A DNA stretch of 26,928 nt from a virus (IMGVR_UViG_3300032242_000676:1-26928); one strand, 5' to 3'; counted from the first letter of the stretch, positions 22,962-25,557 are shown. The notes: generated by a model not told the origin, from the sequence alone. Numbers and translations: made by a program.

Positions 22962-23025
22962 CCTTTTCAAATAACCTGCTTATTGCAGTGATTGCATCTT
23001 AACTCAAAATTAATGTCCTTGTCAA
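22962..23025 (-). promoter_or_regulatory. Promoter-leader element A
   Basis: On the minus strand: TTGACA (23025-23020), 18-base spacer, TAAGAT (23001-22996), then a leader hairpin CTGC-AATAA-GCAG (22988-22976), the word GTTATTTGAAA, and the SD AAGGA of the DUF6011 gene. A palindrome-like TTAAT...GTTAA spans the spacer up to the -10 box. It is one of three related copies in the window. The -35 and -10 match sigma70 well. The hairpin begins near the expected transcription start. Confidence 0.82.
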
Positions 23026-23049
23026 CAAGGGGGTTATTAGCCCCCGTTG
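23023..23049 (-). other. GC hairpin after DUF932 gene overlapping promoter A
   Basis: The minus strand has CAAC, GGGGG, a short loop, CCCCC, TT, GTTG: a five G-C stem extended by CAAC/GTTG with a two-base bulge, starting 3 bases after the DUF932 stop. There is no T-tract. Its right arm ends inside the TTGACA box of promoter A, so it may both end the upstream mRNA and limit read-through into the next unit. Confidence 0.55.
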
Positions 23050-23052
23050 TGT

Positions 23053-23904
23053 TTAAGCGACTACCAAGTCCTCCACATCAATGACGTTGGACTTTAGCTT
23101 GGCCATGCCGTCAGCGAGACTCCACAACGCACGGTTGAGTTTGACGTTCTCATTGACGCCTTGCACTCCTCTGGTGTGCATTCTTCTGCCAGTGGCTGTC
23201 TTGCCTAATACACCACCCTTGATGATGTTCTCTTGAACACGGTTAAACGTGGTCCAGAGGTCAGACTGTACGTCTTCATAGCGATTGGCTTGGAGAACGC
23301 GCTCTGCTGTCACTGGGGGCTTGTCATCCCAGCGTAGGGACAATGCAGTGTTGGCAAACAACTCTTGCTCTTGTCTGTCCAATGTAATGCTCTTGAATTC
23401 ATCAATACTGTTGCTAATTTGCTTGACGTTTTCCAATACCTTGAACGAACCCTCAATTACGTCTTGAACCACTCTGCCGCTGTGGCGTACACGTACGTCA
23501 GACTGAATGTCGCCAGCAATCAAACCGTTAGAGCACACAAAACGGAAAAATCCTGCGAGCAATTGGTAAGAACTTGTACCGTCGTGGCTGTTGATCAACA
23601 CCAACTCAGGCACCTCGCCTTGTGAGGCAATTGCATCAGGGTGACGCATACGCACCATGTGCTTAGTGAACTCGCGCTTTGCCAAGTCGCGGCACTTAGT
23701 TTGGCGAACTTCAAAGGGCTCAAACCCCTCAAGACGCAACCCGTCAATAACATCAAGCGTGGGAATAAACGTGTATTTTTGGCCACGTGACTCATGAGCC
23801 TCACTGGCCAACACGCTGGGAGCGTAGCGAGCAATCATATCGTTGCTCAATGCAGACTGTGAGCGGAAAGAAAACTGATTGGATGAAGTTGAAAAACGGT
23901 ACAT
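23053..23904 (-). CDS. DUF932-family phage protein
   Basis: A 283-aa protein, start MYRFSTSSNQFSFRSQSALS at 23902-23904, preferred over a start 45 bases upstream because AAAGGA lies just before it and the upstream part falls in the promoter leader. The body has YTFIPTLDVIDGLRLEGFEP, then HMVRMRHPDAI, LVLINSHDGTSSYQLLAGFF and RFVCSNGLIAGDIQSDVRVR, the signature run of DUF932 (phage/plasmid-like proteins). The function is unknown; DUF932 proteins are common in phages and plasmids. It is the single gene of unit B. The C-terminus GRRMHTRGVQGVNENVKLNR is basic. Confidence 0.9.
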   Translation of the reverse strand: MYRFSTSSNQFSFRSQSALSNDMIARYAPSVLASEAHESRGQKYTFIPTLDVIDGLRLEGFEPFEVRQTKCRDLAKREFTKHMVRMRHPDAIASQGEVPELVLINSHDGTSSYQLLAGFFRFVCSNGLIAGDIQSDVRVRHSGRVVQDVIEGSFKVLENVKQISNSIDEFKSITLDRQEQELFANTALSLRWDDKPPVTAERVLQANRYEDVQSDLWTTFNRVQENIIKGGVLGKTATGRRMHTRGVQGVNENVKLNRALWSLADGMAKLKSNVIDVEDLVVA

Positions 23905-23919
23905 GATGATTTCCTTTAA

Positions 23920-23987
23920 AGTTGTTTCAAATAAACTTGCTCTCTGCAAGTGCCTCTATCTTAACTGAAAGTTAATAACCTACGCAA
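23920..23987 (-). promoter_or_regulatory. Promoter-leader element B
   Basis: On the minus strand: TTGCGT (23987-23982), 18-base spacer, TAAGAT (23963-23958), hairpin ACTTGC-AGAGA-GCAAGT (23951-23935), then TTATTTGAAA before the DUF932 SD. The spacer carries the perfect inverted repeat TTAACT-TTC-AGTTAA. The -35 overlaps the stop of the glycosyltransferase gene. It is the second of three copies and has the strongest hairpin (6 bp). Its -35 is the weakest. Confidence 0.8.
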
Positions 23988-24948
23988 GTGTGTGGTTAAT
24001 AACGATTGATTTTATTTGTTGAAGTGTTGTTTGTTTGTCAACATACGCCTTAGCAAACATTTCATCTGGCAGGCTTTTATCGTAGGAGTTGATAACGTCC
24101 AACATATTGGCTTTGCTCTTGACGACTAATGCAGGATCAATTGGGTAGTCGCTCAGTGCAAGGGTGTCTTGGCATGACTCATCAAACAGGCATATGGTCC
24201 CGCTGTTCAGCGACTCATAAAAGCGATTGGCCAAGTAGTTGTACGCTGTATGCGTTTTCTGATCTTCGATGTACAGAGAAAATCCATATTTTGCTAGGTC
24301 ACCCCTTTGGATATTTAATCTATTGATGTAGTCTGGCTGTACACCAAGTGCATCAAACTTAATTCTGTTTTTTAAGTGCGTTGATACAGTCATACCATCA
24401 AAATACTTTTTGAAGTATTCTTTGCGGTCGTCTCTGTATGACCCATAGTAAATGCAGTTGTGGTCGCCTTGATTTACGTGCGAGTAGTTACCGTAGACAA
24501 GTGAGTTGAGATTCATGAGAATCCAATCGTCCACATATTTCATGACGACCTTGCTGACTCGGTGTGGGTGGTTGGCCAGTACAGTGTACTTGCGACCTGC
24601 TTTTGCGGCCATCCAGAGGGTCCTAGGTTCGCCTAAATTGTATTCGTTGGTGACATAGTACAGCTTGGCATTTGGGTTTTGTTCTAACCACGCATAGTCA
24701 GTGTAGGCGTAATGACTGGCATGGACAAAAACGATAGCATCATATCCACCACGCACATAGTCATTGACGTTAGGGTAAGACCAGATCAAGTCAGCACCAA
24801 GTGCATCAGCAATCATACGTGCGTTTTGCCAATGTAAATTTTCCACTGGACCGTCGTGACTAGCCTTGTGGCTGTCAATGACCAGAATGCGGCCAGTAAA
24901 TTTCTTCACTGGCTCCATGTCGTTAAATAAATTAAGTTGTTGATTCAT
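23980..24948 (-). CDS. Putative GT-B-like glycosyltransferase
   Basis: A 322-aa protein with start MNQQLNLFNDMEPVKKFTGR at 24946-24948 (17 bases inside the previous gene). The N-terminal half has RILVIDSHKA and GYDAIVFVHASHYAYTDYAW, a Rossmann-like pattern, then KLYYVTNEYNLGEPRTLW. The C-terminal half has NCIYYGSYRDDRKEYFKKYF (164-183) and NRFYESLNSGTICLFDES (241-258). The last resembles the acidic sugar-nucleotide-binding end of GT-B enzymes such as phage T4 alpha-glucosyltransferase. It may modify DNA, or sugars on the virion or host surface. The window has no hydroxymethylase, so the acceptor is unknown. It lies third in unit C. The assignment is from motif resemblance only. Confidence 0.62.
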   Translation of the reverse strand: MNQQLNLFNDMEPVKKFTGRILVIDSHKASHDGPVENLHWQNARMIADALGADLIWSYPNVNDYVRGGYDAIVFVHASHYAYTDYAWLEQNPNAKLYYVTNEYNLGEPRTLWMAAKAGRKYTVLANHPHRVSKVVMKYVDDWILMNLNSLVYGNYSHVNQGDHNCIYYGSYRDDRKEYFKKYFDGMTVSTHLKNRIKFDALGVQPDYINRLNIQRGDLAKYGFSLYIEDQKTHTAYNYLANRFYESLNSGTICLFDESCQDTLALSDYPIDPALVVKSKANMLDVINSYDKSLPDEMFAKAYVDKQTTLQQIKSIVINHTLA

Positions 24949-25129
24949 GTTGAGCCAACACTGCCTGCAAGCCTGCCAACAACTGCTCTGCCTCAACCTT
25001 GGTCAAAGTCACATTAAAAGAACCGTGACTAGCTTGTAGGCCCATCCAGACATCAGTGTCCTCCCACTCTGACACTGATACTCTAACGCCATCTTCGGTA
25101 CGAATAATTGTTTCGATTTGTGTTTTCAT
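24932..25129 (-). CDS. Small unknown protein in unit C
   Basis: A 65-aa protein, MKTQIETIIRTEDGVRVSVS at the start, then VWMGLQASHGSFNVTLTKVE, ending in a helix (EQLLAGLQAVLAQHE). It has a beta-beta-helix look but no conserved catalytic residue. The ATG at 25127-25129 is preceded by AAAGGA and by a UUCG hairpin. It overlaps the glycosyltransferase start by 17 bases, so it may be co-translated with it. No family recognised. Confidence 0.72.
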   Translation of the reverse strand: MKTQIETIIRTEDGVRVSVSEWEDTDVWMGLQASHGSFNVTLTKVEAEQLLAGLQAVLAQHESTT

Positions 25130-25143
25130 GATTGTTCCTTTGA

Positions 25144-25157
25144 GCCCCCGAAGGGGC
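25144..25157 (-). other. cUUCGg hairpin between genes
   Basis: The minus strand reads GCCCC-TTCG-GGGGC: a 5-bp GC stem with the very stable UUCG tetraloop closed by C-G, 7 bases after the stop of the 105-aa gene and 15 bases before the ATG of the 65-aa gene. No U-tract follows, so it is not a classical terminator. It may protect the upstream mRNA end or influence the ribosome site (AAAGGA) that follows. Confidence 0.65.
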
Positions 25158-25164
25158 GTTTGGT

Positions 25165-25482
25165 TTAACGTGATGTAACTTTGACTGAGAATTGTGTGGT
25201 GACTTTGGTGTATTCCAGATATTTAGTTTCACCAAATTCGGCAACAAATTTTTCTTTGTCAAAAAGAGTTTTGTTGCAACCAATATACGTTGCACTGAAC
25301 AAATTGCCTTCTACAAACTGGACTTCTTTGCCTTTAACAATTTTTTTGTCTAGCAAACCAAGTGAACCTTTGTCTTTAATGCTGTCTTTAATTGCTTCAG
25401 CTTGCTTTGTTAGCTCGGCAATGCGAGCAAGTAACTCGCCCAACGTGTCTACGGGGGAGAGGGTAATATCGTTTGCATTCAT
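25165..25482 (-). CDS. Coiled-coil phage protein, first gene of unit C
   Basis: A 105-aa protein with start MNANDITLSPVDTLGELLAR at 25480-25482; an upstream start 75 bases earlier falls in the promoter. A helical N-terminus (ELTKQAEAIKDSIKDKG) is followed by a beta part (VKGKEVQFVEGNLFSATYIG) and a C-terminal LEYTKVTTQFSVKVTSR. The coiled coil, beta hairpin, and xYxKxTTxxxVKVxxR ending resemble a small phage family I know from early genes (sometimes linked to nuclease inhibition, which I cannot confirm). AAAGGA precedes the ATG. It is driven by promoter C. Confidence 0.75.
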   Translation of the reverse strand: MNANDITLSPVDTLGELLARIAELTKQAEAIKDSIKDKGSLGLLDKKIVKGKEVQFVEGNLFSATYIGCNKTLFDKEKFVAEFGETKYLEYTKVTTQFSVKVTSR

Positions 25483-25496
25483 GATGTTTTCCTTTG

Positions 25497-25557
25497 TTTC
25501 AAATAACCTGCTCTGTTGCAGTGATATGAATCTTAACAGAAAGTTAATGCCTGTCAA
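25497..25557 (-). promoter_or_regulatory. Promoter-leader element C
   Basis: On the minus strand: TTGACA (25557-25552), 16-base spacer, TAAGAT (25535-25530), hairpin CTGC-AACAGA-GCAG (25521-25508), then GTTATTTGAAAC and the SD of the 105-aa gene. The spacer carries TTAAC-N5-GTTAA. This copy is nearest to a perfect sigma70 promoter. It follows the stop of the Ref-like gene by about 20 bases and starts unit C. Confidence 0.82.

Follow-up and report, generated by a model that had tools for sequence, protein, structure and literature searches.

The three repeated elements A, B and C of the analyzed window (the virus record IMGVR_UViG_3300032242_000676:1-26928, a fragment of 26,928 bases) are best explained, with a probability of roughly three in four, as promoters of a dispersed phage regulon of the Cro/YdaS type, whose mRNAs would carry a 5′-terminal stem-loop. 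The host RNA polymerase would read these sigma70-like promoters, and a 17-bp dyad of the TTTAAC-N5-GTTAAA type, lying in the spacer and -10, would serve as the operator, on which a dimer of a small repressor would shut out the polymerase from all sites at once, including the repressor's own promoter. In the long-leader mRNAs, a short stem-loop would open the transcript at about +1/+2, with an A/U-rich stretch and then the SD behind it, and most likely this stem-loop would slow 5′-initiated decay of the RppH/RNase E type. Repressor binding, repression, timing and RNA stability are what we infer from features that the sequences support, namely the promoter words, the symmetric change of the dyad, its co-occurrence with cro, the operators at the cro promoter and the start-anchored hairpin.

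Nearly all genes of the window lie on the minus strand and its non-coding share is just 3.5%; A, B and C occupy three of the few larger gaps. Read on the minus strand, each element has, in this order, a -35-like hexamer, the -10 hexamer TAAGAT, a short hairpin, the word TTATTTGAAA, an SD and the ATG, and all three share a dyad, TTAAY-N5-GTTAA, extending into the -10 of the sigma70-like promoter (Table 1). A sequence-only reading of the window had described these three elements; we find them where it placed them, to about one base, each before its gene (for the DUF6011, DUF932 and 105-aa proteins) and each with TTATTTGAAA and an SD. Other parts of that description hold only in part. The -35 resembling TTGACA is found in A and C, whereas B has TTGCGT; the proposed core word fits B and C as ATTAACTTTCnGTTAAGAT but reads ATTAATTTTGAGTTAAGAT in A; and the small hairpin is present in all three with short stems of 4, 6 and 4 bp, of which only that of A is better than shuffles when folded singly. 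In the window, TTAAYNNNNNGTTAAGAT is found three times, in these elements only, and so is TTAAY-N5-GTTAAGAT, against 0.005 expected (first-order Markov control); TTATTTGAAA likewise has exactly three occurrences, every one inside an element. Antisense pairing by TTATTTGAAA was considered and rejected, as in the window the word and its complement have no copies beyond the elements, and elsewhere they are rare.

A G/C-rich inverted repeat, GGGGGCTAATAACCCCC, abuts the -35 of A, and here the DUF6011 unit begins fused to the terminator-like end of the DUF932 unit. A 322-aa ORF, located in the segment from the 105-aa gene to DUF932, has its stop codon inside element B, at the boundary of -35 and operator; Pfam and PHROG searches with it gave no match.

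Table 1 Coordinates of the elements in the window and of associated features in related phages
Feature	Position	Strand	Remark
Element A, whole	23025-22954	minus	
A: -35 hexamer TTGACA	23020..23025	minus	
A: putative operator dyad ATTAAT-TTTGA-GTTAAG	22998..23014	minus	
A: -10 hexamer TAAGAT	22996..23001	minus	spacer 18 bp
A: 5′ hairpin CTGC-AATAA-GCAG	22976..22988	minus	predicted +1 = A at 22989
A: word TTATTTGAAA, leader before SD	22965..22974	minus	SD about 22961-22964
Gene under A: DUF6011 protein, 183 aa	22402..22953	minus	PF19474, 9.7e-15
Inverted repeat GGGGGCTAATAACCCCC	23029-23045	minus	abuts -35 of A
Element B, whole	23987-23905	minus	
B: -35-like hexamer TTGCGT	23982..23987	minus	
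B: putative operator dyad ATTAAC-TTTCA-GTTAAG	23960..23976	minus	
B: -10 hexamer TAAGAT	23958..23963	minus	spacer 18 bp
B: 5′ hairpin ACTTGC-AGAGA-GCAAGT	23935..23951	minus	predicted +1 = A at 23951
B: word TTATTTGAAA	23925..23934	minus	SD AGGA about 23912-23915
Gene under B: DUF932 protein, 283 aa	23053..23904	minus	PF06067, 4.3e-48
322-aa ORF	23980-24948		
Element C, whole	25557-25483	minus	
C: -35 hexamer TTGACA	25552..25557	minus	
C: putative operator dyad ATTAAC-TTTCT-GTTAAG	25532..25548	minus	
C: -10 hexamer TAAGAT, extended (TG before)	25530..25535	minus	spacer 16 bp
C: 5′ hairpin CTGC-AACAGA-GCAG	25508..25521	minus	predicted +1 at 25522-25523
C: word TTATTTGAAA	25497..25506	minus	SD AGGA about 25490-25493
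Gene under C: 105-aa protein	25165..25482	minus	weak PHROG 6244 match
Operator-like dyads at cro promoters	G003, G004 (IMGVR_UViG_3300032271_000563), G005, G007, G016, G017, G018, G020, G022/G023, G025, MW202545		
Sixth dyad of MW202545, TATAACTAGGAGTTAGA	L016:54348-54364		
Betaproteobacteria-1 RNA, MW202545	L016:5829-5946		RF02932, 100 bits
int-alpA RNA	L140:12570-12637; L007:4413-4479; L005:6348-6416; L060:450-526; L178:10440-10508		RF02996
tRNA-like leader RNA	L149:5900-5990; same region L151, L153, L154, L160; L136:3285-3392; L060 1-215		

The element recurs in other phage records before orthologous and unrelated genes, in agreement with the earlier view of a conserved unit rather than a recent copy. 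A pattern scan of IMG/VR found the full element in 12 contigs, bearing out its expected presence in related phages. In contrast, 85,000 scanned cellular genomes yielded one match (L048), within a coding gene and with a span of 57 bases, which we attribute to chance, and an element common to hosts was therefore rejected. Homologues of the DUF932 and 105-aa proteins were gathered at 87 loci: close homologues have the element before the same gene, as anticipated for close relatives, whereas the more distant loci often have a diverged form or none. The records of 22 relatives were examined, most of them whole or nearly whole. The comparison set comprised 31 non-redundant elements (A, B, C and 28 more), whose first genes belong to 14 unrelated groups. 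Of these elements, 12 precede a member of the 105-aa family and three precede DUF932, the former being the most constant regulon member across relatives. Because the first genes fall into 14 unrelated groups, we regard the element as a regulatory module kept by selection and not as a recently copied gene block. Its recurrence across phage records also supports the suggestion that the phage could control the three units jointly.

By portal and terminase, the window shares 60-65% identity with MW202545 (57 kb, Manatee Spring) and about 42-46% with the Caulobacter phages RW, RLK, KcrB and GB2A; Caulobacter phages are among its nearest cultured relatives. The group as a whole probably consists of uncultured freshwater phages. 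In MW202545, a Betaproteobacteria-1 RNA adjoins a cluster of six tRNA genes, a hint of a betaproteobacterial host.

The 17-bp dyad occupies the spacer and -10 in all 31 elements. It reads [AT]TTAAC-N5-GTTAA[AG] in the window's clade and TCTAAC-N5-GTTAGA in MW202545, both arms being altered together; the dyads of G020, G022 and G023 belong to the TCTAA class and equal or nearly equal that of MW202545, and TTTAAG-N5-CTTAAA is found at one site of another lineage. Given this symmetric change of the arms between lineages, an operator, more than a promoter word, is the best reading of the dyad. The 57-kb genome of MW202545 has six sites at up to two mismatches, five of them at promoter positions. 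The sixth, TATAACTAGGAGTTAGA, lies 44 bp from a promoter operator, downstream of the 54392 promoter, where it spans the SD and the surroundings of the start codon in gene 54020-54346 and may be a second repressor site.

The same substitutions bear on a reading in which the dyad, as TTAA-N7-TTAA, would be a CtrA box through which an alphaproteobacterial host placed the phage promoters under its cell-cycle control. The CtrA consensus consists of TTAA halves at N7 spacing, both of which the dyad shares, and the presence of Caulobacter phages among the closest cultured relatives in portal and terminase would fit such a host. However, the site in MW202545, G020, G022 and G023 is TCTAAC-N5-GTTAGA or close and holds no TTAA, the Caulobacter phage GB2A has no dyad, and MW202545 has the Betaproteobacteria-1 RNA, while to our knowledge CtrA would be unexpected in Betaproteobacteria. 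With its TTAA halves symmetrically replaced in the MW202545 lineage, the CtrA box is largely refuted, and we rejected it as extremely improbable. A long common block upstream of several units in one phage could also be a promoter for a phage-encoded RNA polymerase or sigma factor instead of an operator on a host promoter. This appears very unlikely in view of -35/-10-like hexamers spaced 16-18 bp and a dyad symmetry that survives base changes. Moreover, in G005 and G007 the dyad is shifted off the -10, the usable -10 lying about 10 bp beyond it, and the hairpin is placed relative to the -10 rather than to the dyad; a search of 11 records for the RNA_pol family, run without a positive control, gave no match.

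One of the MW202545 sites separates two divergent genes, for proteins of 66 and 218 aa. The smaller product is an HTH protein of the YdaS/Cro kind (Pfam YdaS, 9.5e-11; PHROG 35, 'transcriptional repressor'), and the AlphaFold model of the Cro-like protein (pLDDT 95) has its best PDB match in the N-terminal domain of YdaS from CP-933P (TM 0.87). A profile of 16 Cro-like proteins found a match in all 20 records of good coverage, whether element-bearing or related, and no Cro-like gene in four structural relatives (GB2A, CRP-901, HTVC027P and DSL-LC04); these cro-less genomes contain 0, 0, 1 and 0 dyads, respectively, versus five in MW202545. Operator-like dyads are also located at the cro promoter itself in about 11 genomes. 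Furthermore, proteins with WLS or WMS in helix 3 together with IHG or IHE go with TTTAAC sites and those with WLG and without HG go with TCTAAC sites, a match that rests on few independent events because both types are shared by descent. The core word of the sequence-only reading is thus likely a dyad operator, and since it co-varies with the Cro-like protein, shared repression is the likely logic. There is no cro gene in the window, as expected of a 27-kb fragment, and the repressor of the A, B and C sites is presumably of the kind encoded by relatives that are 60-87% alike.

The Cro-like protein might instead bind the dyad as an activator, or another phage regulator might bind it. No CI-like partner was found (Peptidase_S24, 12 records searched), which gives this alternative some room, but the overlap with the -10 is the usual place of steric repression and cro itself carries the same operator, and we consider it distinctly unlikely. 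A lambda-like lysogeny switch is unsupported, because the searched records contain neither an S24 repressor nor an integrase (Phage_integrase, seven records), with the proviso that CI types may lack S24.

Several structured RNAs were noticed around the cro-like gene. An int-alpA RNA lies directly downstream of it in five relatives, in a context on which the family name may mislead, because no integrase was found in those phages. A tRNA-like RNA with four arms occurs in one to three copies in the cro leader of relatives. It has a 7-bp closing stem (GTTGGCG/CGCCAAC), small arms and a conserved CTGCTTTATG loop, and four of its pairs are changed on both sides; it was not called as a tRNA and matched no Rfam family at gathering score. 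Upstream, some genomes have more hairpins (CCAACACG..GGGGATTG..CAGTCCCC..CGTGTTGG). In G016 and G017, the cro mRNA start is predicted to be paired at about +1, in the 9-bp closing stem of a larger fold.

A hairpin whose stem measures 4-7 bp begins 4-9 nt past the -10, mostly 6-8 nt, in 27 of the 31 elements, compared with a mean of 2.1 and a maximum of 8 elements after leader shuffles and almost none at other offsets. Going beyond the sequence-only reading, this puts the hairpin at about +1/+2 of the predicted transcript start, within the ~2-4 nt that characterize a 5′-terminal stem-loop. Fourteen different stem sequences occupy this position. The hairpin is present in all 27 elements with leaders of at least 33 nt and in none of the four with leaders of at most 26 nt, which, at 14-26 nt, cannot hold a stem plus SD. 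Folding energies of single sequences are modest (-5 to -11 kcal/mol, about -5 for 4-bp stems) and most are no better than those of shuffles, and the case for the hairpin therefore rests on position and stem variety; a pair count of 56/56, made after the choice of stems and hence circular, was left out in favor of the leader shuffles. An intrinsic terminator was rejected, as A and C have no U-run and the hairpin sits between promoter and SD; only the hairpin of B, among the three, reaches a loose terminator pattern.

As is established for ompA and papA (Emory, Bouvet and Belasco 1992, cited in PMC3997798), a stem at the extreme 5′ end hinders decay initiated from that end, and by analogy the hairpin probably contributes to mRNA stability. 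With the operator unchanged, it could alternatively serve an RNA-binding protein of phage or host, promoter escape or pausing. Around the stem, CACTGC and GGTTATTTGAAA, for example, are conserved past the need for pairing in the window's clade, which is in favor of such a role, whereas stem, loop and the next word differ freely from one clade to another (14 stems), which speaks against an RNA-binding protein with sequence specificity, and short-leader elements manage without any hairpin. We find these other functions somewhat doubtful and retain protection of the mRNA as the probable role.

More tentatively, and with somewhat less than even confidence, we propose that this freshwater phage group, apparently without CI and integrase, has a genome-wide regulon under a lone Cro, with a hairpin free in sequence in every long-leader promoter, such that one module would set both timing and mRNA lifetime and some cro mRNAs would start with a tRNA-like leader. 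The reading of A, B and C as a Cro-type regulon provides a readable regulon, a likely regulator and a putative built-in device for RNA stability for genes of no known function (DUF6011, DUF932 and the 105-aa family), makes an orphan word testable as a switch with two natural operator-repressor specificities, and offers a clean test of 5′-terminal hairpins as a general means by which phages protect selected mRNAs.

Cro-type control, dispersed operators and 5′-terminal stem-loops are each known already, and their combination is a new variant; the open-access literature yielded nothing to the point on leader hairpins of phage promoters or on Cro-like regulons of lytic phages. As in ompA and papA, the stem is predicted to lie at most 1-2 bases from the 5′ end and precedes an A/U-rich stretch and the SD, but here it occurs in every long-leader promoter of a phage regulon, with a stabilizing role proposed by analogy. 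YdaS of CP-933P is an analogue of lambda Cro, and its footprints cover its own and the opposing promoter (PMC8630535). The phages described here share with this system and with Cro of SfV and lambda a small YdaS/Cro HTH protein, inverted-repeat operators over promoters, its own included, and a divergent control region. In the lambdoid phages, however, the operators are gathered in one switch region, whereas here no S24 CI-like repressor or integrase occurs in the searched records and the operators are scattered singly before several operons. Mycobacteriophages of cluster A likewise have one repressor with many sites dispersed over the genome; those sites are asymmetric and many of them stop elongation (stoperators; PMC9283540), whereas the sites of the present regulon are symmetric and located in promoters.
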